Source of the DNA: Buxus sempervirens
Taxonomy: Eukaryota > Streptophyta > Magnoliopsida > Buxales > Buxaceae
Direction: 5' to 3'
NCBI GenBank assembly: GCA_947561395.2
Contig: OX387193.1
Span: forward strand, 34,980,255 to 35,044,254
Length of the DNA stretch: 64,000 nucleotides
This document shows, in pieces, positions 3,401 through 57,412 of this stretch; positions within the stretch are counted from its first letter, which is position 1; each line of letters begins with the position of its first letter. The position numbers and the translations under genes are program-made. The notes below the pieces were generated by a model, which had not been told where the DNA came from, searched no databases, and worked only from the letters and a program-made list of their open reading frames with translations.

Positions 3401-6400
3401 TGATTAATAAAATTCAAGTTTTGGAGAAAATATCTTAAAAAATTTAAGCCCTTGATCATGTAACATGAACTACATTTTGTGAATGTATATTATCCTATAT
3501 TTGTTTGAAAGCCTTCTACTGAAGTTCTGTTATTCTCTAACTGTAGAAATATTTATTTATGCTTTGTTGAATGTTTTTATGACTGAGCATATATGATAAT
3601 GTCTTAGTATATTGCTCAATATCCTCAACATAAGCCAGTTCCCACCAACTTTGGGTTGGCAGCATGTATTTTGACTCTCCATCCCATTCTATCATTATTT
3701 AGGCGTATAACTCATTGAAATGCTTATTAAGACATTTTTACACCTAAGTGACTCAAATTACAAAGTAATGACATTAATTAAGTAATTCAATATTTTGCTT
3801 GATATATCAAATGATATTTCTCCTTTCATCAGGTGGCGGTAGCGATATCAATAATTTATAAACTTGATCCTGATGGCCTCTTCGAAATAGAATCCAAAGT
3901 TAATTTTAGGGACCTATTTCTTTATAATTAAAGAATTTTGATTTCAAACTACTTAGTTGACTTAGTACTTGGTAGAACATTGACCGTATCTACCTAGAGC
4001 TTCTTTTGACTTGTTTACCTTTCCCTGTATTCTTCTTTCTTGAGCAAGGATATATTTTTTTTGCAGCGTGATGAAGAGGACATGGTTGAGTTTGTTAGAA
4101 ACACCCCGTCTGAGTTCAAGGAGTATTATATTCAAATGCAGGCAGCAAAGAGAAGCCAAGCACCTCTTCCATCACTAGTAAGAAATGGTTCAAGGACATT
4201 GTTGCTTGAAACTTCTTCTTCTTTTTGTTTTTTTTTTGTTTTTTTGTTTTTTTGTTTTTTTGTTTTTTTGTTTTTTTGTTTTTTTGTTTTTTTGTTTTTT
4301 TGTTTTTTTGTTTTTTGTTTTTTTGTTTTTTGTTTTTTTGTTTTTTTGTTTTTTATGTAGAAGGAATCCAAATTGCAATGGATCAATATCTCCAATTTCC
4401 ATGCACTGTAACAATTCCATGGGGCTTGGGACACATGATGTGGTTGTCTTAACCAAAAACATCTTTTACAACCCTAAGACCCTACTGGATTTGTTTTTTA
4501 TTTTTAAAATGTCCTTTTTAAAGTATACTTGTTTTTGAGAATCGCATTATTGGTAAAGGAATTCTGATTTATCTTTTTTCTTTTATAGAATGTTGTTTGA
4601 TGACATCTTAAAAAGAAAATTGTATCTTTCTGCTCAGTCTTGTTGGGGACATTGTTAGTTTTTTACTTTTAGTTAGTTTTAATCTTGTCTCGAACGACCT
4701 CATGTCAAATAACAATTCCTTTTGGCAAACATATCTTGATCAAAATAAGTTTTCAACAAAATATTTTGTTGAGGACAAGTTATATCTGTGATATAATTGG
4801 TGGAAGCATTCATTGAATTCCTAACCATCTAATCTCTATATTTGTTGGGGCCATTTAATATTTTCTTACCATTGAAAGGAGCATGGGCCAGAGAGGCATG
4901 TTATGTGGAAAATGATTTATATTTACTCAGGGATGTCCTAAAATAGGTGCAATGTGTATCTTAAACCTTCGTGCAAAGATGGCTTCTTTGTATTTCTCAT
5001 TCTGACGTGAGTATCATGTAAAAGAATCTGAAGGAGCATTCTCTAATTGTGCTTTCTTGTTCAGGTGAATGATGATCACATGGTTCTTGACAAAACAGTG
5101 TCTGATCAAATATCTTCGTGGAAAAGCAGTAGGGGCCTGCCTGATGAGGCGGCTGTGAATCATACTTGTTCTGGAGAAACATGTTCTTACTACCAAATCG
5201 GAGATGTTTTTGTGTGTGAGAAGACTGGTTGTGTTCATGGTAGGAAAAACTAGTTACCTTATGTGGCTACCTGTCTGTTCATATATGTTTAAATATGTGT
5301 ATGTATTAACTTTTTTGCTGTATGCAGTATGTGATGACACGTGCAGAGAAGCTGTTATGGATCCCACTAATGAGCTTTTAGTTTGCACAATATCTGGGCA
5401 CTGTTTTGATAGATTGCTCTCACCTGCCGAAATGGAGCCAGATTCTGTAAGTGAAGCTCATCTAAATTTATTTACCTTTTCCTTTTCTTTATAATCCCCA
5501 CCTTCCACTTGCATGTATTAGATTGAATAGCTGTATTACATACCTTACCATCTTTCTTGGATTATCAAAGTGAGCTTTTGTGCAATTTTTATAGATGTCC
5601 ATAGCTCAGAATCCGACACAGGCAGAACAGTGAGAATTGTAAATTTTAATGCTTTTGGACAGCTTCTTTCTACATGGGGTAATTCATGGATCGTTAAGAT
5701 ACAAATTTGTGGAATATTTGCAACAAATTAGTAGTTGAAGGCTGTTTGCAAGACATGAACAGAATGAAGGATCAATAAATAATACTTAATCTTCCCTTTT
5801 TGTTGTCCTCGACATTGTTTCTAAGGCCTGGTTATTCACTAATACTTTTCATTTCTCTTTGGTTTCAGAATTCATAGGTATCTTCTTTCCAAACTGTCAA
5901 AAGTCTATTAAATCTCAGCCAGGACCATTAAATACCGTAAATGCCTCTGTTTAATGTTAAATACTGGCTGGTACTCATGTACTGGTTGGTATGAGTCAGA
6001 ATCGGCCATGGCCAATCCATTGTTCGGTACCAAGGATTTAAACTTTGGTCAAGACTATAGATAACTGGATCTGATACCCAGCTAACCCCACTTCCATTAC
6101 CTAATATTGCTTGCCTAAAATGACTTTTTTGTCTTCTGGTATGAATGGGGTGAAGGAAAAGTCGGATATCTCTTTAGAGGTTGTTAAAGAGAATGATGAA
6201 CAGTTTCCAATCCGTATTGTTGAAGCATTTGTTAACGTGGATGTGCCCTTTCCTTACCTACCCCTCCTCCCTCTGCACCTCCCAGTTTGGGGTTTGTTTA
6301 GCTTGATTTCAACAGATCCTCTTATTAGGAGCCTGGACCCATCTCACACTACAGGAATCTTCAGAAATCTTGGAAATGTTATTCATGCTTTCTTTGATCC

Positions 6401-9400
6401 TATTGGGGAGGGGAACGCAATTAGGAATATGTTTATGCGTTAATTGAGGGGCAAGGCAAAGAACTTGGGATGCCAGTATAACTTACTGTTAACCCCCTGA
6501 GCATTGGGTATATGGATGATAAAGAGGAAGGGTCTGGCATGGTCAGAATTGGTATTTGAAATTGGGAATGCCATTATTACTTGCTGTTAACAAATTATAG
6601 TTATGGTATGATGGAAATGTCATCCTTCCCAAAGATTACCTTGTCTGATTTTTTGGAATGATTCATGATAGAACGCCCATGCCAATATTTCAGGTTAAAA
6701 GTAAAAGTGTACAAGTAGTGGTATTGTCCTAATTGGTTGACCATACTTAATCTTTAGTGCACTAATTATTTCAATGCTGTTCTGAAGGTTAGGCAATTCT
6801 GTTTTCAGTACAGTTGACACCAATATCTAGTTTTTTTTTTTTTTTGAGAAAGGTAAGCCATATTAATCCTAAGAAGAACTGTACAAGGGTAATCCCTGAA
6901 AATCCGAGGATCACACGGTATGGCTAGAGCCCCAGCAGGAGCTTAGGCAAAGTTAAATATAATTCCATATTATAAAGCGTATCTAGATGTACCATATTGT
7001 TTCATCTCTATTTCTCGGGCTATATACTGAACAGAGATCGGTTCTAGTCTAGGACTGCCCCATATTTTCAGTGTCTCTCCCCAAAGTGATTGGCTCTAAC
7101 TGCAGGAAAATAAGAGATTGTTGTGTGTTTCTGGAGCCACTCGACAGAAAACACAAGTAGATCTGTTCAGAATACTCATTTGCCGTGGTCACTCTTGAGT
7201 GAGAAACCTTTTATGCAAAAGGCTGTCCACATGATGAAACAATTTCTTTAGGTATATTGTCTGGAATCCAAACCAGATGAGCCCTTGGAACATTTGGCAT
7301 GTTTGTCACGAAATTTCATGAGTGTGATTGACCATAAACAGGCCAGGCTGAGGTGTTGAAGTGGTGATGTCTGGTTTACTTTCATTTGGGGAAGGTAGAT
7401 CATTGAGGCTTTTCTGAACTTCAAGAAATTCTTGTGGTAGGTTATTAGGAATTACCCATGACAGACCTGCAACAAATTGTTTAATTCTAGCATTTCGGTC
7501 CATACCTGGAGAGTAGATGAATGTGTTGCTATATTTCTAAGCTTGTGAACATGGTGACAGAAGGTAGTTCTCCCATCATTAATCCTCTGCAAATAGAACG
7601 GGTAGGCGACTTTCCAAAGGTTCGACAGTCGCCTCCAAAACCATGTGCATTTGAAAGGGATGTTCTTCAAACTCCAGAAATTTTTATTTTTAAGAGGGGT
7701 GCTGCGAATCTATCTGATGAATAGGGACTGTCTCCTGTTGTAGATCTCCCATACAAACCTCATGCCAGCTGCTCTGTTCAATATGGGAATGTTGGTCAGG
7801 CTGAGACCCCCTTTTTTTTCCCCCAAGCACACTGTCAACTGGTCGACTAAATTAATCTTAAATTTGAGCTCTGTACCTTCCCAAAGGAATGACTTGCAGA
7901 TGCTTTCAAGTTTGTTCAAAGCATTCTCAGGCAAGGTGAAAAGTGACAGCCAATAAATACAGTGGAAGTGAAAACGGATTTAATGAGTAAATCACGCTCT
8001 GCATAGGCCAGAGATTTTGCTTTCAAAGCTGGAACATTTTGCCTTATCTTGATCTATAATTCTTTGCAATCTCTTGATCTGAGTTTTGAGGTAATCAGGG
8101 GACCATTTAGTATTTCACTGAAGACTTGCCTTCAGGTTTTTGAAGAAGATTGCAAATAAGTTCTTCGGTTGCTAACTGAACAGCAAAGAAGAAAACTTGG
8201 CTTTGTTAAAGTTGATCTTCAAGCCCCTAAACTGAGATTAGTTCTTGAGTGTTGATACTAAGAACTTTATTAAATCCGTATCTGCTCTGCTTAGAATGAG
8301 GACATCATTGGCAAAACATGAGAAGTTTTATACCTTGTTGGCATTTGGGATGGTGACTGAAAACCTCCTCAGTTGCTTCCTCAATCAGTCAAGCGGTTAC
8401 TTCCATTACTGTGTCTAATAAATAAGGAGATAAAGGGTCTCCTTGTCGATCTTTAGTGTCTTGGAAGAAGCCAATTGGAGATCCATTTACAACCAGAAAG
8501 TACGATGGAGAGGTTTATGCAAGGGATAAGCCAAGATATAAACAAAAATGGAAACCCAAGTCCAAAAGGATAGGGAACAAAACATTTCAGTTGAATGAAT
8601 CGAAGGCTTTAGAAATGTTGACTCCAGAGCACAGTGGAGATTGCCTTTGTTGAGATGGAAATCATGAAGAAGCTGATGTGCCAGTAGTATATTATCACCA
8701 ATGCGTCTTCCTGGAATAAATGCAGATTGATATCCACAAATAAGAGCAAGGGAATAAAATTTTCAACTTTTTGGCTAAAACCTTGGCAATGCGCACATAT
8801 ATAATGTTTTTACCCATGAGATAGGCCTTAAGAACATAACTTTAGAGGGTTTCTACTCTTCAGCACCAAGGAGATTAGTATTGCATTGATCTGCTTTAGA
8901 AGATAACCAGATTTGAAGAAGTCAGAGATAGCCATCACTATGTGTTCCCCTACTACTGCCAATGCTTTCTTAATAAAAAGGGATAATTATACTTCGACCC
9001 CCTAAGGTTTGTAACTTATGCATGTAGAACTCCTGAGATTTGGAAAATGGCAAAAAACCTCCCTTGACATTTGCTCAAATGGTCACAAAGCCCCTTTTTG
9101 TTATTAAAAAGAGCAAGCTAACTCTTGAGATTGAATTTATTTAAAAGCCAATATAATCCCAAAAATATCAAACTAAAGTTAAAAGAGTTAATACAACTGA
9201 AATAAGTCCTAATAAAAACAAAATTCCAACTTTCTCAATTGAGCATTCTCCAAAAGTTTTCTTATAAATCTACAAGGAGGTAATTTTGTCATTTAGCACA
9301 TACAGTACAGTATTTTGTTCAAACTTAAAGGGTTTTTTAGGGATAAAATCTTTGGAAGTGAACTTTGTGATCATTTGTGCATATGTCAAGGGAGGTTTTT

Positions 9401-12400
9401 GACTTCTTCTAAATGTCAGGGAGTCTATGTGCATTGCATAAGTGACAAACTTCAGGAGTCTAAGTGTAATTATCTCTAAAAAAAAACATTAGTATATCCA
9501 TTTGGACCCGGAGCTTTGCCATCTGATTTTTTATCATGTTATATCTCTGTTCTTCTCTGGTAAAATGACTTGGAAGAATAGCAGCAAACTGATCCATCCA
9601 TGATAGAGTTGCCATTAGCTTCACTCACAGTCATAATACTGTTGTGTGCACGCCTGTTGATCAGAGAGTTATAAAACATGCTGTATTGCCATCACTTGAT
9701 TTTAACCAGTGGACTCTGGATTGTTGGCATACATAGGCTTCTTCTACCTTCAACAATTCTGCCAATTATCTAGCAAGATTCTTCTCGTGAGAGGCTAAGT
9801 GAAAATTAGAAGGGTCTTTAGATTGCAGGAACTGAGTAAGGAGGAGGTGTTCCCTGATTTTCTGGGTTCAGCTGAGAATATACCAAAAAGTGTTTGTGCT
9901 TCATTTCTTCAATTGGCAGTTGAGAAGTTTAAATTTTTGTACAAGACAATACATTGGAGTGCCGGAGTGCCTCTCACATGAGTGTTCCAAGCTTCAGTAA
10001 CTAGAGGAAGAAAGAAGGGGTGGTCATCCCAATGGTTAAAATTCAAATGATTTTTTAACCTTTACTGGACTGTCAACATGGAGACAAGAGGAATTGTGGT
10101 CAGATATTCCAAGCTACTGGAACTTTGCTTCAGCGTAAGTGAATTTTGGTTGCCACTCGAAGTTGACCAGAGAACAGTCTAATTTACAAGCTATGTGAGC
10201 TGAACTTCAACTCCTCTTCAACTAGGTAAGAAACTCTCATCTATACTTGAGCTTAACTAATGCACAATGAATTAAACTCCTCCAAGTCTCCAGATATGAG
10301 CTGAGGCCCTTTAGTTAAACACATTTTAGGTCTTTCCATAGGATTTCCCTCTCATTACTGCTATTAGATCCGTAGACAAATGTCATTAAACAGTACTGTT
10401 CTTCATGGAGTTGAAAATGTCTGTGAATCAGCTTGTCTGTGATTGATAGGAGAGTGTTATGTGCTCCTCCCAGCTTCCAACATACCAATGCGCCCTTTGG
10501 GAGCTTCAGAGTAGTTATATACTGATTGCTAGCCAGGCAATATAAGAAATCATAGAGTGATAATTTATTTGTCTTACAGTCATCACCACAAGACAATTCC
10601 GGATGATAACCCTCTTTACCTTGTAATGCTTAGAGAGGTCACAGAGACCTCTTATATTCCAAGTTCCTATGTTAAACATGGGAACCTGGGATGATGACTT
10701 GAAATCCAGTGGCAGGGGCTTCAGGTGCACCTGATTTTAATGCAGATACAGTCTTTGATCTGGTTGCTTCTGTTCTCTAATCTTCCACAATGATATGTGC
10801 TTTGCTTCTTATTTTTTTCCGTTTTGATTGTGGATTTAGGATCATCTTCCCCTTCAACTTGTGTCAGAAGTTCAAAGCCATTTGCCACTTTGCAAGGGGA
10901 GTGGAGCTCTATCAGAGGTTCTTGGGACAATGGCAGAGCCATTTGAGGCTCAGATTCTTGAATTTTAACAACAGTCATAACGAGGCATTTTACAGGAGAC
11001 TGCTTCCTTTAATCATTTTCAGAGATCATTGTGCATTCAACCGCTTCCTTGAGCTCCATCTCTATTCTCAGATGGAGCAGCAGATTTTGGAACCCAATTC
11101 TTAGCATTGTCTTGTGAACTAACAGGGCAATGCTGAAAATTATGACCAAATTTCAAACAGGAGTTACATCTCTTGGGCTCCATGGATATTCGACTCTAAT
11201 GCCCACCCAATCCTTTGTTTCTTTTGTTCCCATAGTCAACACAGAGTCTTGGGAAGTTTGAGCTAGAGGAGACATGGACAAAGATTCTAACATAATCCAG
11301 TATTTTCTGAGAAGAGATGACTTTGTCGATCAGCAGAGGCTTACCAATCGTGCTTGTAGCACAGCCTAGCCCTGTCTCGGTCCATAAGTCCAGTTTTACC
11401 CATAATGGTATTTGAGGGCATGGATAGCTTGGTAAACCTCATTCTAATCTGCTAGTCCTTCACAACGAACAGTGAACAGCCAACCTCCCAGATGCCAAGG
11501 CCTTTGGCTCAGCAATTTGTCCTGGTCTGTTTCAGTGAAAAATCTGAACAAAAAGAAGCCTTTATCTTTAGCCGAAGTATCAATTGCACCAGAATTACTC
11601 CAGAGTTTATACACCAAGGCTTTAAACACCAGGAAGGGGAGGGGCTTGTCTAAAAAATGCCCAACTAGAGCACCTTCCCAAATAGATTTACCTTCGTCAA
11701 TAACCTCCTGAGGATGGGTCACACAAATGTGCTCTTCAACAGAGGAAGGGGCAAAATATTTCAAACACCATCTGCTCCTGCCATCCCTTCTGCTGCACAG
11801 AGCCAATAATCTCTTGGTAAGGTTCAGGGAGAGGATAGGATCTGCCATTGCTCCATAGGAGCAGAGACCTTTGGCCCCCTAAGGAACAGGGGCAGAAGGA
11901 GGAGGATCTAAAGAAAGGTCATCAGGAAATGAAGAAGAGGGGGGTGGTAGAGAGGGTGAGGGCATGAGGACACAAACGGCTCACTACTAGCCAGCAGAGT
12001 GCTGGTGAGGTGAAAGGAAGGCAGATGGAGGGTATAAAGGGGGTTAAGGGAATGCAGAGGGAGGACACCAATATAAAGTTGTACCTTTCATTTAGAAAAA
12101 TCTGAGTATCTGGTCACTGTTCTTTTGGGAGTTTCATACTAATGGTTTTCTAGAAGTTCTATATGACAGTGTATTGCGAATACTCTTACCTTATAATATT
12201 GTTATTCTGCATCTTGGACTTCTTTTCACTCTTCTTCGTTTTTTTTCTTTTAATTTTTTTTAGCGCAGTTATAATAGACTAGTTGCACTACTTCCATTAG
12301 CCATGAGTAAGGCAAAAAGGCTGGCATCTGTGATTTGCATCTTGGCATTTGATTCTGATGCTTGCTTCTGAAAATTCAGGAACAGCAACAAGGTGGTGTC

Positions 12401-22598: not shown

Positions 22599-23282
22599 AT
22601 TAGTATTGATGACAACAACTGGATCCCTAACCACAAAGGCTCCATTCCATTAGCTCCCTTGTTGACAATTGGGAGTGACCTGTAACACCCCGAATCCAAG
22701 TTACGTAATAAAACCGTAACTCGTTTACGAAGGTTAATTTTTCACACAGGATCACTATATTAGAGTGAAAGAAAACATGAAATAAACATATACCATAAAA
22801 TTAGAGTCAACTAAAACCCAACACAATATAGAATAACATATCTCTAATCTGAAACTCACATGCTCCAAGTATCTACCCTTTTGTATCATCCTCTCCAAGA
22901 GCAGCTGAAAACAAAACAAAACAAAATGGAATGAGATACGAATATCCCAGTAAGCAGCACATGCATGCTCAAATACATTTTTCATAGTTATAAAACACGG
23001 ATCGGATATAAAGCATGTAACAGTGGTGATAACTCGATTAATCCGAATAATCCCACAATATTCCAGCAATCAAATACAATATAACTCATATAATCCAGCA
23101 TATAAGTTAAATCCATAACATCAATATCAAATCATGCGAATAATCATGAAACCCAATATAACCATGTAACCACATGTCGATGAAACAAATTTTTCAAAAC
23201 AACACAGTAGATATAACTCAAATCAAAACAAATGTCAACATCGATAAAGCCACTTCATGATCAAGTCCATGCCTCCATGTGT

Positions 23283-23374
23283 ATATCCGGCCTACTCAGG
23301 GTTTCGGATATTGAAATGACGGCCTACTCTAGGTTTCGTCATCCAATGCCGGTCTACTCCGGGTTTCGGCATTG
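23283..23374 (-). repeat. Hairpin array with constant loop (array A of this LTR)
   Basis: Three hairpins have 15-nt loops of the form GCCTACTCAGGGTTT and different stems: ATATCCG (23283-23311), ATGACG (23316-23342) and CAATGCCG (23344-23374). A fourth, degraded unit follows at about 23380-23400. Confidence 0.9.
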
Positions 23375-23589
23375 ACAACACCGGACTTCTCATAGTATTG
23401 ATGCTGCTCTACAATGGCGGTGGAGATACAAATACCAATAACCACATACAATAATAAACAAGTACCGATAAACTAGCTGACAAAACATCTTGTGTCAAAT
23501 CAAGGCTTAACATAGGCCAATGTCATGTAATTTGTTTAGACTAAGTAATCAACATGCCAGAGTGACATCCACACCTCCATGTACACAGT

Positions 23590-23707
23590 TCCGGCCTACT
23601 TAGGGTTTCGGATACTCTGAAATGATGGCCTACTCAGGGTTTCGTCATCCAATGCTGGCATATTTCGGGTTTTGGCATTGACAACCCGACTTACTCAAGG
23701 TTTCGGG
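23590..23707 (-). repeat. Hairpin array with constant loop (array B of this LTR)
   Basis: Four hairpins with 15-nt loops: stems TCCG (23590-23612), ATGATG/CGTCAT, CAATGC (inner pairs lost) and CCCG (23685-23707). The slot order matches array A. Confidence 0.88.
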
Positions 23708-25979
23708 CTGCTCTACACCGGTCGTGGCAACACTCATGGCCATGGCATTACACCAATGAAACAAAAACATCACATTACTAAGCTTAGACATGGATCCAAG
23801 ACAAGCTAGACCAGAAAATAAAATCAAATCCCCAATTTAAACCAAGATGTAACTCAGCATGTAATCCAACGTGTAAAGCACATATAGCCCAATGTGATCA
23901 ATACATAACATGGGTCACTCAGGACCGACCCACTCCATCATGGAGTTTCCAAGGTACCTTCTCAAGTAAATTCACAATAACAAAACAATATGCATTTCCA
24001 AAGTCGACTTCCGATATTAAACAACATTCAAGTAAAGCATTCATGAAATAATCCATGCATTCAAATCTGTCCCAAATAATTAAAGCATGCAAAATCCGTC
24101 CAAAACCAAATAGTATTTCAAATCTGCAGTTTTAGAGATTAAACACATTATATAGAAACCCAAAACTGGCATAGGAACTTCGATTAAGCTTAATCAGAAA
24201 TCAATTTCATAGATTGCTAATTTCATTGACTTATATCCATTCCACATCTACTTAATTTCTATCATTATATTTATATTGTAGGTAACCTTCAACTAGAAAC
24301 CAATACAGATTAATTGTAACACTTATTTAACTCTAATTGGATGTGATTTGGAAGTAAAAACCATGAAAACCCCCTTAGAATTAAATAACCGCACTTAACT
24401 GTCCAAAATGGAGTTGGTCACTTGGGCGACCTACCTGGTCGCCTGGGCGACCTCACAAATTTTCCACAGTCCCGTGGGCGACTGTCTGAGCGGTCATTTA
24501 ACTCTACTTTCTGGCAATTTCGAAAGTCTCTGTAAATTCAAAATCATAACCTCTGACCAATAGTTCATCACCTACAACACTTCAATTCTCATCTCTGATC
24601 ATCTAAGATCATAATCAACTACTTTTGAATTTAATCGGAACACAACAGCAAACAAATCACGGAAAATCAAATTCAAACACATGAACCTTCAATTTCTCTT
24701 TTACTCAGATTATACACTGATCAAACTGAATTTCATATGCAATTCGGTAAAACGAGGGTGCTACTTACCTGTAAGAAGTCAACAACAATTCAATCTCGAT
24801 ACCTTGTGATTCCAGGAGCTCCTAATCTATAGATCTAAACCGATCCCACCAAAACAACCTTAATTTGATCGAGCTCTCTGTGCGCACCCGATTTCGGTCG
24901 CACGACGAGGCGCACGCAAAACGATGCGTGCCTCGGGATTTGTTTGGAGTCGCCACTACCTGATGGGGTGCAGGCAAACACCGGGGTGCCTAAGTTCTTC
25001 TACTAAGGCTTGGTCTGCGGCTTGAGATTCTAAGTAGGGGCTCGGTTGCGGTCTGGGGAAGTCCGTAGACACCCCAGTCCACCCCGTCAAGTGACGGGTC
25101 CCATAGGTTTCCTTGGTTTGAGTCAACTTTGGTCTCACCTGATTCCTAATCCGATATGCAATTTGGTTAAGTCTGGCGGGACCACCTGAGTGGTGTGGGT
25201 CCCTTTAGTTGCTTTTATCTTGATTACTTAGGTGATCTGAGTCTGGTTGGGTGGGCCCCTTTGGAAGGCCCACGGTACCCTTGGTGGGCTTAGTCAAGCC
25301 CGTGTACCCTTGTGGACCTCAGTCTAGCCTGAGAGGTCTTTTGGGCTTTGGTTAGTTCAATTGATTTTACTTTAAGTTCACATTTGAAGATTAAGTGTTT
25401 TTCATGCACAAGTGGGCCGGACCGGTTTGTGGGCCCCTAAGGTGGGCCCACATGGTGTCCAAGTATTTTTTTTATTGGATTTATCTTTTGAATTTTGCCA
25501 AAGTGATTTGGACACTGGGCTTGGGGCCCGCAGTCCAAATCTGGGCTTGTAAGCCCAAGTTACCGGAAGTTAGGGTTTGTACCCTTCCTTGGTTCGGTTG
25601 GTGGGCTTTGGCGGGCCTGGTAGGCCTTTGCCCTTGGTCTCGGCCAAACCACGCAATTCATGCATCAATTTCACATAACAAGGCTCGGGTGGGCCGCATT
25701 GGGTTTGGCCCGCCCGGTTCAAATTGTTCATTTTACTTAAGTTATTTTAATGGCATGCTTTGGTGTTTATTGGGCTTGGTGGGCCCCGTTGGAAGGCCCA
25801 CTGGAAGTCAAGTTGGACCGAGAGTCCAAGTCCCATGTCGGGTTTCCGGGTGACCCAGAAACCCTTTTGGTTTATCCGGTTTGGTTCGGAAATATCATTC
25901 ACATTTAGCAATAATCACAGAAAAAAACACAAAATAGACACTCTGTCAGAAAAAAACTGGCTCATTGTGCTGGGTCCAA

Positions 25980-26109
25980 GGGGAGGTACCCGGGGGCCCT
26001 GTGGGCGAAGCGGAGCCCACGGGGTGGGGTACCTCCCCGTACCAAGGTACGAGTTGGATGCGCAACGAACAAAGGGGGGGGGGGGGGGGTGCGGGGGGCG
26101 AAGCCCCCC
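25980..26109. repeat. GC-rich hairpin pair with poly-G run
   Basis: Arms GGGGAGGTACC (25980-25990) and GGTACCTCCCC (26028-26038) enclose a second stem GTGGGC (26001-26006) / GCCCAC (26015-26020). A further hairpin GGGGGGC-GAA-GCCCCCC is at 26093-26109, right after a 16-G run at 26074-26089. Confidence 0.88.
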
Positions 26110-26267
26110 ACGGTACAGTAAAGGGCATATTTGGAATTTTTCAAAAATATATTAATTTGGCATGTTTTAGGGGTTGGCGCCGACCTCAGGTAGTAGGCGC
26201 GAGGTCGGCGCGAAATGGGCGGACCGAAAACAGCAAAAAAAACACAAAAAATGAAGTGGGCGCGGGG

Positions 26268-26345
26268 TTCGCGCGAGCCTCGCGCGAAGGGTACGCGCGA
26301 GCTTCGCGCGAGATTCGCGCGAGCTTCGCGCGAGCTTCGCGCGAA
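26268..26345. repeat. GCGCGAGCTTC minisatellite
   Basis: Five to six units of about 12-14 bp built from TTCGCGCGAGC, each palindromic at CGCGCG. Very CpG-rich in an AT-rich window. Confidence 0.9.
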
Positions 26346-26924
26346 CTCAGCGGACACTCGATGCTCTCGGTTTTCTTTTAAACTCCATTTTCGACTGGTT
26401 TTAAGCCCTGTAACTGGTTTCTGGGGATCCTTAGAACCCCAGCAAACCTCTAAACACAGATGGAAATTAACCTAACCTAACACATCCTCCCACTCATCAC
26501 TTAAATCTCTCTGGAAACTTACAAATCCGAAACAAAATATTAACAGAACATGAATAAACTTCCAGGATCAAAACCCTAGCTAACAGAACATGATTATGAA
26601 GAAGGGAACAGGGGGTTTTATGGGGTTACAACAACAGGGATGGAGAACTCATGGGGGAACATGCTCCCCCTTCGAATCAAGCAAACAATGACAAACCAGA
26701 TGTTAGAGATGCATGGGAAGCTTGATTTATATATGTTGAACAAAAGAAAATGGAGAGCTCACCTTGGTTCTAGGTCTCTGTAGAGTAGGCCGGAGGGTCC
26801 CTTGGAGCCAACGAGCAGCTGCCGGAGCACCAACAACAAGATCCTCTTCGGGTTTGATGAGGAAGAAGAGGAAGGGAGGGAAGGAGTGTGTCTGGTCTTT
26901 TCTTAAAAATTCCGAACCCAGAAA

Positions 26925-27085
26925 ATGCCCAACCCAAGAAAAAATCTCCAACCAAAATTTTTCCAACCTCAAAACAGCCAACCCCCAAGAAATGCCGAAC
27001 CCAAGAAAAAATCCCCAACCAAAATTTTTCCAACCTCGAAATCAGCCAACCCCCAAAAAAAATGCCGAACCCCAAAAAAATCCGA
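26925..27085. repeat. 66-bp tandem repeat in LTR
   Basis: Two and a half units start AATGCC.AACCCAAGAAA and share CCAACCAAAATTTTTCCAAC. Unit starts are about 26926 and 26992. It makes Pro/Asn/Lys-rich spurious frames. Confidence 0.88.
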
Positions 27086-28314
27086 CCCCCACAGTTGAAG
27101 ACTCTCGCGGCTTATATAGGCAAGGGAAATGGGGTGCCGCTCACCTTGGCGCCCAGCACAAGGTGAGCGCATGTCGCTCGCCACGTTTGCGCGAGTGGCA
27201 TAATTATTACAAAACAATAAATGCCGCCGCTCGTTTGTCTTAAAAATCTGAAAATTAGGATATGGTCCCTGGGATATTTAGGTTTAATATTATTTTATTC
27301 AGATATTTTCAGATACTTTTAGATTGGTCCCTGGGATATTTTGAATGTTTGGATATTTACGGATTTGATCCCCGAGATATTTTTCTGCGCAACTCGCCAC
27401 GTGTGCAGCTTTTTGCCACGTGCGCACTTCGCCGGTTTTGCTGCTCGGAAACTTCGCCAGCTCATATTTTCTTCACCCGGGCTCCGATCTAGGCAAACTC
27501 AGTGGCGTTAGAATCGTATCGGAGCCCTCTATCCGATGACCTAGGGGTAGGCCTCCGGATCGGATTTTGGCAGAAAGTCAACTTTTGGCTTCGCCAAAGT
27601 TTGACTGCCCGCAGAACCTTCATCCGGACTCCGATTCCTGCAAACTCAGTTGCGTTGGAACCGTGTCGGGATTCTATATCCAATGATATAAAGCAAGGTG
27701 GCCAAATATCACTTAATCAAAAAGTCAACTTTTTGTCCCCTCGGGGTTTGACTTTTTGCCAGGGTTTTCATTTTCAGCAATTCCAGGGGTGAAAAAATAA
27801 GGTGCTTACACTCTCTACTGTTTACTGTTTCTGGAATCAATTCCCTTTCTACTCTTCAAAACACTTACAGCCGATTGAGATGTTCCTCTGATCTCTTCCT
27901 CGAGATCTGCCAATCAGGTCTCTCTATTTCTTCCTCTTTAGTCTCTCGTTGCCTTCCTCAATTCCCGAAATTTCCAAGTTTAACCAAATGAACCAACTCT
28001 ACCAAAATAACCTCTATTTATAACTGCCGCCCAAACTCACCTCCTTTAAACTCCCTGATTCCATACAATGCCACTTCAGCACCCTTTCTATACATTCAAG
28101 ACTAAACTTATAAATAAAATATTTAAATAATTTACTCAGCAATAATTATGAACTTAATTTAATCACTTACCTCATTTAAGTAGTTCATCCTTTATTTTCT
28201 GAATTTACTTAAATATCCGCAAATTCCTTTTTCCTGAAAATTCCACAAATAATAATAATTAATATTACCAAAATAAATTCCCAATTCATTAATAAAAAAA
28301 TATGGGGTTTTACA

Positions 28315-54475: not shown

Positions 54476-55534
54476 ACGCCACCAATTTAGATCGTTGGAT
54501 CTAGGGCAAAAACCGAGTGATCTTGTGAATAAGATGCATTCGGGTGTGATCCGAGTTCAATCCATGAGCACTTTAAGAAACGCCTATAGGTATTAATATT
54601 AGAATAATTAAGGAGTAGGATTCGAAGGAAGGGGTCTAATGTTGTAAGACCCCAGTTTTGAGTAGAAAAAATAATAATAATAATAATAAACAATATAAAA
54701 TAGTAGATAAAATAAAATATACGCAAAAGTATGAACACATGGATTTATGGACAGGCTTGATCAAAATTTATTTATTGCTGGAGATTTGTGGTCATTAGTT
54801 GTCAAAGAGAATAACCTAAGTGGCCGGAACATGTAGGGTTTCCAGTGGGCGAGCGCGCATAGGATCAAGGGTTTAAAGAGTTATCGAGCGGCGTATGTAT
54901 CGCAAGGTAAATATACCAAAAGGGGAAATTAGGGTTTGGGTTTAAACGAATACTCGTATCGTACTTGTGGAAATATTTTCGTTAGTCTCGTTATCTGGAG
55001 AACTGGGCGACTTGGCGATTGCGGCTGTTAATGGCGATTAGGGTTATTCCCGTGAAGAACAAGAATCGGAAGAAATACTAGGAGGTTATTGGAGTCGGAT
55101 TTCTGCGGGTTATTTCTCTCGTGAGCAGAGGATTCGTGCGGCTACCATTTCATCTTCGTGCGCAGCCGGAGTCGTGCTCGGCCGGTTGTGGAAGATGCTG
55201 TTGTTCTGGGATTAAGCGCATACGGTGAGTAGCACTGATTTACAACTGGGTTTTGTACTTGATGTTTTCGTGAGCTTATTCTGATGCATGGTTTGTATAT
55301 TAAGTGATGTATGAGTTTTCTGGTTTTTTTGGTTTTCTGGAAATGACATGAACAGAGTCTCCGGACTGAATTTTATCTTTAAAAATAAAAGTGTTTATAT
55401 TAAATCCAAATATGGTTGGGAAGTCTCCTGGGAGTATTAGGAGTGTAGTAGAACAATTACAGGGGTAAACAAACCGGCCAGTCATGTAGATCTTGGAATA
55501 ACAGAGAAATGAAAATCACAGGGGGTATCCGCCC

Positions 55535-55790
55535 ACCTCGCGCTCACCGGCGCTCACCTAAGAGGTAGGCGCCCCGTTAAATACCACCCACCGCCGAGCT
55601 CACGCCCGTCTGGCGCTCAGCTCGCGCTCAGCAGAAAACCCTGTGCTCATCTCGCGCAAATCTCGCGCCCACCTCACGTCCGTCTCGCGCTCAGCTCACG
55701 CTCACCTAGCGTCGAGTGAGCGGTGGGTCGATTTTACCCCATTTCCTTACCGCCGACCGGCGCTCACCTCGCGCCCACCTCAGGAAGTGA
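55535..55790. repeat. GCGCTCACC-type GC-rich repeats in LTR
   Basis: Many copies of CTCGCGCTCA, CCGGCGCTCACC and CTCGCGCCCACCTC in a CpG-rich block. Comparable GC-rich blocks lie at 24,420-24,485 and 44,540-44,780 in related LTRs, but with different unit sequences. Confidence 0.75.
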
Positions 55791-56409
55791 GCGGCAGACC
55801 CTATTTTGCTTACTGAATTGGAGATTTGATTTAACTAAGAGTATTTGGGTTACTTGAGGATTAAACCACTTCACTATTCACTTGTTTGGGAACCCTGGGA
55901 ATCTATTTTGCCTAGGAAACTATTAGAGGAAAATTTAGTGAACTACTTAAAAGCTTTCAAGTTGAGTTTAGGTTATTTATGAATGTTATGCCGGATACCA
56001 AACCACTAAGAGTTACTAGTTACATTTCCTCTGTTTTATACACTGTTTTGATTGAGGAGTTATTCTATTCTGGTTTCACTGGTTTGGAAACTTTAAATGT
56101 ATTGTAAAGATTTCCTTGGTATGAATGAATTGAGTTTTACTTTCAAATGACATGTGTTACGGAAATGAGAAAATACTGAAAGTACTTGAGGTACTGCTTG
56201 GTCCAGAGGGACAAGTGATGAATTGTGATGAGTTTTGCATGATGTGGAATGAATGGTTTTACTTTGATATTGGAATTGAGATTAAACGATGTTTTACTGT
56301 TTTGGTCTAGCTTGTCCTGGATCCAGATGTTTAAGCTTAGTAATGTGATGTTATTGTTGGTTGTTGGAATTGCATGGCCTTGTGTGTTGCCACGACCGGT
56401 GTAGAGCAG

Positions 56410-56529
56410 CCAGAAACCCTGAGTAGGCCTGGTTGTCAATGCAGAAACCCGGGGAGTAGGCCTGCATTGGATGACGAAACCCTGAGTAGGCTGTCATTTC
56501 AGAGTATCCGAAACCCTGAGTAGGCCGGA
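56410..56529 (+). repeat. Hairpin array with constant loop (first array)
   Basis: Four hairpins with loops AAACCCTGAGTAGGC or close: stems CCAG (56410-56432), CAATGCAG (56437-56469), ATGAC (56471-56497) and TCCG (56507-56529). Confidence 0.92.
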
Positions 56530-56720
56530 ACTGTGTACATGGAGGTGTGGAGTGTCTACTTGGCATGTTTAATTTATCAACTAAACAATAGTCATGACAT
56601 TGACCAATGTTGGTACTTGATTTGTTTTGACGTGATATGTTTTATTCGCTGGTTTGTTGGTATTTATGGTTCATGGAATATTGTTTACCGATTATTCGGT
56701 ATTGTACCTCCCGCTGGTGT

Positions 56721-56834
56721 AGAGCAGCCAGAAACCCTGAGTAGGCCTGGTTGTCAATGCAGAAACCCGGGGAGTAGGCCTGCATTAGATGACGCAGTCA
56801 TTTCAATATCCGAAACCCTGAGTGGGCCGGATAT
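56721..56834 (+). repeat. Hairpin array with constant loop (second array)
   Basis: The same four slots: CCAG, CAATGCAG, ATGAC (its loop has shrunk to GCA while both stem arms remain) and ATATCCG (56806-56834). Confidence 0.92.
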
Positions 56835-57412
56835 ACATTTGGAGGTGTGGACATGGTTATGAGAAGACTTTGTGTTATATGACATTGGTATATTCTGGAA
56901 TTATATCTTGAGATACGAAATTATGGTTAATTGCTATATTGTTGTCAGTTAATCATTATTTTATCGATAGCTTCGGGATTGAAAGCGGATTGTTATTGCT
57001 TGATTTACCTGATGGTTTTCCGCACTGATATGAATTGGATTATTGAAGTTTAGTCGGATTATTCGGAATATGTGTGTTATCATCATGGGATATGGTTTAT
57101 AACTGTGGCATGTTTTAGAACTGAAATAAATGTATTTGTGCATGCATGTGCTGCTCACTGGGATATTCGTTTCTCATTCCGTATTGTTTTGTTTTGTTTT
57201 CAGCTGCTCTTGGAGAGGACGATACTTGCGGGTAGTTACTTGGTCATGTGAGTTTATTTTCGTTTGGGATTATTTAGCGCACTCTGTTATATAGTTATTG
57301 TTGTATTCATGTTTTTCCTTCACTCTGATATTGCAATCCTGTGTTTTATAATAACCTCTGGAGACGAGTTACGGGTTTTTCATGTGACTCGGATCCGGGG
57401 CGTTACAAATGT

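Follow-up and report, generated by a model that had tools for sequence, protein, structure and literature searches.

In the genome of Buxus sempervirens, a long terminal repeat (LTR) carries rows of small hairpins that present nearly the same loop on different stems, which raises the question of what such a row might do for the element. We analysed a stretch of 64,000 nucleotides around it (the window) and its relatives in the genome, and the evidence on the array comes from this one genome. How plant LTR retrotransposons divide the RNA for translation from the RNA for copying is poorly known. For decapping, one route by which these RNAs may be separated, direct evidence is lacking in plants according to the accessible text of PMC12786077.

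Hairpin arrays in the solo LTR

The LTR read at 54643-57407 is flanked by the target duplication AATGT at 54638-54642 and 57408-57412, in agreement with its initial annotation as a solo LTR. An array consists of four hairpins in the constant order H1-H4, with stems of 7-8 bp, and H1, H2 and H3 abut. The layout is GTAGAGCAGC-H1-H2-H3-linker-H4, followed by a conserved tail. The features of the solo LTR are:

54643..57407, + strand: solo LTR (TGTAAG...TTACA) bearing both arrays
56406..56436, + strand: array 1 H1, GCAGCCAG / CTGGTTGT, 15-nt loop, pair 2 covaries
56437..56469, + strand: array 1 H2, CAATGCAG / CTGCATTG, 17-nt loop, pair 2 covaries
56470..56498, + strand: array 1 H3, GATGACG / TGTCATT, 15-nt loop
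56503..56532, + strand: array 1 H4, AGT(A)TCCG / CGGAACT, one-base bulge, 15-nt loop
56724..56754, + strand: array 2 H1, 8 contiguous pairs
56755..56787, + strand: array 2 H2, 17-nt loop, 7 contiguous pairs
56788..56802, + strand: array 2 H3, loop shortened to GCA; the short form (GCA or GTA) recurs in relatives
56806..56834, + strand: array 2 H4, ATATCCG / CGGATAT, 7 contiguous pairs

Seven full loops are present, at 56414-56428, 56445-56461, 56477-56491 and 56511-56525 in array 1 and at 56732-56746, 56763-56779 and 56813-56827 in array 2. Each of them stands on 4 to 9 contiguous pairs, counting G.U, against a background of at least 4 contiguous pairs at 2.4% of positions in the whole window. 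Four hairpins had been described for each array. This holds for array 1, but array 2 has three full hairpins only, because its H3 reads ATGAC-GCA-GTCAT and has lost the loop. Likewise, the 15-nt length first taken as constant is that of most slots, but H2 of the solo LTR has a loop of 17 nt. The short stems first given had to be replaced by stems of 8 bp in H1 (with two G.U), 8 bp in H2, 7 bp in H3 and 7 bp in H4 of array 2.

The stems observed include GCAGCCCG/CGGGTTGT, CAATGCCG/CGGCATTG and GATGACG/CGTCATT. The H4 stems differ between array 1 (AGTTCCG/CGGAACT) and array 2 (ATATCCG/CGGATAT), yet each can pair. In many copies the outer stem of array 1 H4 pairs only over a one-base bulge, and in plain register its pair 5 is paired in a fraction of 0.44 of 95. 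The two arrays, about 300 bp apart, look like a tandem duplication, and a single array is found in many copies. Slots fuse or duplicate at the common loop in loci L009, L013, L021, L105 and one further copy (probably L098), where the fused slots are hybrid hairpins with the 5' arm from one slot and the 3' arm from another.

Arrays in the inverted LTR

The second LTR of the window lies in the opposite orientation, and its arrays are:

23587..23711, - strand: array 1, with H1-H4 loops at 23689-23703, 23658-23672, 23628-23642 and 23594-23608
23283..23407, - strand: array 2, with loops other than that of H1 at 23352-23366, 23322-23336 and 23290-23304
23384-23398, - strand: variant loop ATACTATGAGAAGTC of H1 in array 2

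Reading these loops in sequence bears out the proposal that this LTR, too, has two arrays with the slot order of the solo LTR. The hairpins first described for array 2 are present, but the variant-loop H1 at 23384-23398 had been overlooked. The region 22681-28314 had been taken for a single LTR and is not one, as it encloses a nested solo LTR from a different family. This nested LTR, TGTAAGCACC...GGGTGCGCACA, occupies 24879-27810 on the minus strand, with GAGAG on either side.

Abundance and conservation of the loop

In most slots the usual loop is AAACCCTGAGTAGGC. The window contains 12 matches to the loop with at most 3 mismatches where 1.5 are expected, and none of 100 shuffles got to 12. 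The 676.5-Mb genome contains the exact 15-nt loop 11,578 times (5,777 and 5,801 on the two strands), and the reversed sequence gave 0 matches across the same 676.5 Mb. The window excess, the genome control and the flanking pairs together rule out a chance match. A 23-base anchor just 5' of the array has 5,786 genome copies at up to 3 mismatches, and its control has 0.

Among the 491 fifteen-base loops in a set of 537 hairpins, A3 (1.00), A9 (0.99) and T11 (0.99) are near-invariant, transversions stay below 1% at positions 3, 5, 8, 9, 10 and 11, and position 7 is the most variable. The core of the loop, A3 and G8-A9-G10-T11, scarcely varies. RNA folding predicts a small helix inside the loop, for example CCU/AGG closing GAGU. 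In the H1 loops of array 2, the inner helices differ between two families, and the pair inside this loop reads T-A 22, C-G 9, T.G 2 and C/A 2 among 35 exact sites genome-wide. At loop position 2, A changed to T jointly in H2, H3 and H4 of one lineage, in keeping with either co-evolution with a single partner or gene conversion.

An 18-mer of the core matched 0 contigs of the viral_contigs collection and 1 contig of the genome_contigs collection. The latter holds a single core copy with no array in the 201 bases around it, and by our own estimate about seven chance matches are expected in that collection.

Compensatory changes in the stems

For the comparison of stems, 103 stretches were retrieved, of which 20 measure 9.0-9.5 kb and the other 83 roughly 0.56 to 1.1 kb. 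They originate from 23 first-listed loop matches and 42 first-listed exact anchor matches on contig C1; the remaining 38, spread over contigs, are BLAST matches of the inverted LTR. Because they were picked in this way, they are a non-random sample. The 153 anchor matches gave 104 copies of array 1 and 41 of array 2, with 8 left out that had no end match. Seven of the 145 arrays were not parsed, and 15 of 552 hairpins were left out. Three arrays initially placed in array 1 were reassigned to array 2 before the alignment of 114 distinct arrays (150-166 bases; 78 of array 1, 36 of array 2) used in a tree-aware test; the single-array covariation tests and the array 1 pair-state table predate this reassignment. 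For the null of the tree-aware test, the tree was made without stem columns and the changes of each column were reassigned over the branches in 100 sets.

H1 pair 2 and H2 pair 2 take ranks 1 and 2 of 12,720 column pairs, with an E of 0.10 each. Covariation summed over the 29 stem pairs reaches 216, whereas none of the 100 null sets exceeds 104, and 94.0% of 3,179 cells are paired in the 114 arrays against a null maximum of 89.8%. Covariation with E of at most 0.1 is confined to 2 of the 29 stem pairs, and variation in most other stem pairs is chiefly single-base decay. In array 1 alone, with 81 sequences that include 3 misfiled copies of array 2, E was 0.02 for H2 pair 2 and 0.05 for H1 pair 2; no stem pair reached E below 0.05 in array 2 alone (33 sequences).

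We then counted the states of pair 2 across the genome, in every slot whose loop has TGAGTA. The pair reads A-T at 3,946 sites, C-G at 7,506, A/G at 121 and C/T at 35, so that it is matched at 11,452 of 11,608 sites; the reversed controls for these four states gave 0 each genome-wide. Some A/G sites are two-slot fusions, as in L021, and 12 of the 100 A/G sites listed fall in one tandem repeat on contig C8. Pair 1 occurs as Y-R at 1 site and pair 2 as G-C at 0 sites in the genome. Since Y-R is so rare, the G-C of pair 1 looks like part of the fixed core. In array 1, the states of pair 2 in H1/H2 are C-G/C-G in 18 copies, A-T/C-G in 13, A-T/A-T in 25 and C-G/A-T in none. The intermediate A-T/C-G copies indicate that the two changes were separate, successive events. 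Compensatory change is real, though it comes from few events.

The initial annotation would have given up its structural reading if compensatory stem changes were no more frequent than single ones, or if the arrays were simple slippage products with random flanks. The excess is found in the two top-ranked stem pairs and in the genome-wide matching of pair 2. Pairing drops to 19-42% when the 3' arm is slid by 1 to 4 columns, compared with the 94.0% in register. We thus reject simple slippage with random flanks, though slots fuse or duplicate in some copies. Pairing and compensatory changes uphold the structural part of that reading, a conserved loop on changing yet paired stems. When 3' arms were swapped between slots, no other arrangement scored as well as the true one in 84 of 125 copies, a result blurred by the CCG/CGG that H1, H2 and H4 often have in common. 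The hairpin structure of the array is well supported.

As a separate observation, the region G000:C8:29624072-29725158 contains twelve array-bearing sites, mostly about 6.85 kb apart, and the element or part of it seems to be tandemly repeated there.

Strand and folding energy

The fixed wobbles of the stems read as G.U in the LTR sense, at pairs 5 and 8 of H1, pair 9 of H2 and pairs 7 and 8 of H3. Three of them (H1 5 and 8, H3 7) can form together, because H2 9 and H3 8 share bases with neighbouring stems. No pair within the stems of H1-H3 is fixed as A/C; H1 pair 9, just outside the stem, is A/C. States found in at least 15% of copies comprise 16 G.U and 5 A/C, which are non-independent, and single-cell departures at the G-C pairs of array 1 (88 G.U, 87 A/C) have no strand bias. 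The fixed wobbles lean towards sense RNA as the form in which the array may act.

Compared with shuffles, the window array folds no better (z 0.04), and array 2 of the inverted LTR has a z of -1.99. Over 70 of the 114 arrays, the mean sense z is -0.64 for array 1 and -0.90 for array 2; the mean antisense z is lower, at -1.69 and -1.30. The sense energy is lower than the antisense energy in 38 of the 70.

The better relative folding of the antisense strand would suit an array that acts as DNA, whether as a cluster of binding sites or cruciform-forming palindromes for a DNA-binding protein, or as single-stranded cDNA in reverse transcription. Under this explanation, template switching would copy one arm onto the other and so produce the compensatory changes. 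Quasi-palindrome correction makes both changes at once without selection, and the fused hairpins of L009, L013, L021 and L105 indicate that slots do recombine. However, arm copying leaves unexplained why one conserved loop with near-invariant bases stands on four unrelated stems, and the fixed G.U positions would be mismatches in a cruciform. We regard action as DNA as unlikely, and action at the RNA level as likely.

Conservation of the array module within the LTR

We compared 21 LTR segments, L014 being excluded. Several pairs from diverged subfamilies can be aligned in two places only, some 300-320 bp at the array and a block near a splice-acceptor-like site. The alignable block at the array extends between about -98 and +218 relative to the anchor, with an identity of mostly 83-87%, or 75-81% for L009, where a slot is lost; the second block is mostly 75-110 bp long. 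Closer LTR pairs align further, and the two LTRs of the window are 73% identical over 1.17 kb. On these alignments, the array module is the best preserved part of LTRs that otherwise scarcely align.

This preservation bears on whether the array is an ancestral passenger without present function, which would look conserved since the copies are young and the slots homogenise each other. Slots do duplicate and get deleted. Both the joint A to T change at loop position 2 and the replacement of C-G by A-T at pair 2, which took place in H1 as well as in H2, look as if made by gene conversion. Yet the pair-2 changes of H1 and H2 were non-simultaneous, the paired cells exceed all 100 tree-aware null sets, and a passenger would hardly be the best kept part of the LTR. 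We consider a mere passenger quite improbable.

Splice-like sites around the array

Further signals of the solo LTR locate upstream and downstream of array 1:

55225..55235, + strand: splice-donor-like site GTGAGTAGCAC, start of a putative intron
56306..56345, + strand: H0, a conserved upstream element with the palindrome CTGGATCCAG (56317-56326) between GCTT/AAGC, a possible hairpin
57154..57158, + strand: candidate branch point CTCAC, in the conserved block ahead of the acceptor-like site
57190..57203, + strand: splice-acceptor-like site, a T-rich tract ending TTTTCAG

In 20 of the 21 LTR segments, the donor-like motif (at most 1 substitution) lies between -982 and -1591 relative to the array anchor. 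The acceptor block is found in all 21, with CAG in 19 and CAA in L022 and L025. In that block, the branch-point pattern is CTYAC or CTCGC, the latter being the variant of some relatives. Both signals occur together in 20 of the 21, and from sequence alone they resemble those of a U2-type intron. The array sits between the donor-like and acceptor-like sites within the LTR, ahead of the primer-binding site (PBS), and would thus be present only in unspliced RNA.

Of 20 LTRs, 19 have a phase beyond the acceptor that stays open for 8 to 25 codons, and in L009 it does so for 110 codons. It is possible that this frame is a C-terminal exon located in the LTR. On the donor side, the same phase closes after at most 6 codons in 13 of the 20 LTRs. 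We also notice that 25 codons are open in nine LTRs (L011, L012, L015-L019, L022 and L024), the corresponding stretch of the window lying from 57204 onward; most of these frames end YREEDYYYLP, and ten other LTRs are open for 8 to 13 codons.

H0 is present in 36 of 38 placed upstream segments (41 tried, 3 unplaceable), and its GGATCC is intact in 30 of the 36. No covariation of the palindrome hairpin was found among the 36 segments and its predicted fold is variable, so that H0 as a proven kissing hairpin is unsupported.

The loop segment 56420-56426, TGAGTAG, is identical to the seven bases +2 to +8 of the donor-like site (55226-55232). The array might accordingly be an RNA element for handling by the host, either for nuclear export of unspliced RNA or for control of LTR-intron splicing. 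In the splicing variant, the loop core TGAGTAG, equal to +2 to +8 of the donor-like GTGAGTAG, could bait the U1 snRNP without a usable GT. The position of the array between the two sites and the shared 7-mer, which is read directly, are in line with host handling. According to the accessible text of PMC12786077, RNAs that lack introns can be exported by means of regions of 160-285 nt in which a 10-nt motif occurs at least once, and mouse elements rely on structured elements for export. However, the donor varies between LTRs (GTAAGTAG, GTGAGTGG) with TGAGTAG still the usual loop, and therefore donor and loop do not track each other. Besides, the GGAGTAG of most H2 loops spoils pairing with U1, and the identity of the 7-mer was spotted post hoc. 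Host handling seems rather unlikely to us.

Identity of the element

The PBS TGGTATCAGAG, which presumably fits initiator tRNA-Met, lies four bases past the LTR end in L016-L018, three near-identical copies; with one substitution allowed, it is absent from the other 17 long loci. The TG..CA ends, the 5-bp target duplication and the tRNA-Met-type PBS are those of a Ty3/gypsy LTR. At one locus, L016, we found a Gag zf-CCHC and an RVP_2 protease, then the beginning of a Ty3-like reverse transcriptase (RT). The zinc knuckle of this Gag is matched by HIV-1 nucleocapsid chains (E about 1e-4). The 2.2 kb further along show short frames only. The Ty3-type pieces seen run from Gag through protease to RT, no chromodomain was seen, and the Tekay type given in the initial annotation is a tentative assignment.

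L016, L017 and L018 lie on C1 about 61 kb apart, are 100% identical over the 3,350 bp compared, and are probably a segmental repeat. Upstream of L010 and L028, the large frames code for RVT_3/zf-RVT and RVT_2 domains and are parts of other elements.

A possible packaging signal in unspliced RNA

Taking the conserved loop, the paired stems and the location together, we favour the reading that the array is a multivalent protein-binding element in unspliced LTR RNA, where it would most likely signal packaging or RNA fate. In this reading, each of four short hairpins, of which three stand end to end, would present one same 15-nt loop, and their stems could change freely so long as pairing holds. 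A single protein would find a multivalent dock in the many loop copies of one RNA. Splicing of the putative intron would remove the array, which would thus label the unspliced genomic RNA, the form that reverse transcription would require to rebuild the full LTR. The reader could be the element's own Gag with its CCHC zinc knuckle. That the array is a cis-acting element marking unspliced genomic RNA for packaging by this Gag is possible, and we propose it tentatively. A further and rather doubtful step would be a Ty3-type family with a packaging code unlike any described, in which an intron-located row of 4-8 identical-loop hairpins is read by Gag in unspliced RNA and the stems drift yet stay paired.

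As a packaging signal, the array may be compared with retroviral psi, which also has several stem-loops in genomic RNA, namely SL1-SL4 with the kissing-loop SL1 (accessible text of PMC3902901). H0 is a possible palindrome counterpart of the dimerisation hairpin SL1. Like psi, the array has several stem-loops with evolutionary support, which here rests on few pairs. In contrast to psi, it repeats one identical loop in four or eight hairpins. Moreover, psi lies downstream of the PBS (PMC3902901, same text), whereas the array, known from sequence alone, lies upstream of it inside the LTR.

Among other elements, the accessible text of PMC12786077 reports separate RNAs for translation and packaging in BARE and functional introns in Ogre and EVADE, to which the putative intron and the proposed RNA label of the array-bearing LTR family would correspond. 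Splicing of EVADE takes out the protease domain, however, and that text mentions neither introns within LTRs nor a hairpin array. The mouse RTE and MTE are structured RNAs too, there for splicing-independent export of full-length transcripts; they belong to other hosts, and no repeated identical loop is described for them in the same text (PMC12786077). In the LTR hidden Markov models of Benachenhou et al. 2013, residual conservation in long R regions is tied to stem-loops, which resembles our case. Their chromovirus model (Sushi) covers fungi and fish, and the accessible part of the paper has no plant chromovirus and no repeated-loop array (PMC3601003).

A known Rfam RNA family was ruled out, since none of 4227 models matched the LTR at gathering score; one match, with E 2.2 and below gathering score, is on the other strand. 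A literature search with the motif letters returned fragments in works with biomedical or fungal titles. The suggestion that no such LTR module had been described agrees with our finding none in the literature, in which subscription journals are thinly covered, and the hairpin-array module is likely new. It offers a concrete target for mutation and a bait for its protein, and the thousands of genomic LTR copies are a natural mutation experiment for finding structured RNA.

Apart from the LTRs, the window contains a match to U6 spliceosomal RNA at 602-702 on the + strand, with 73 bits against a gathering score of 44.
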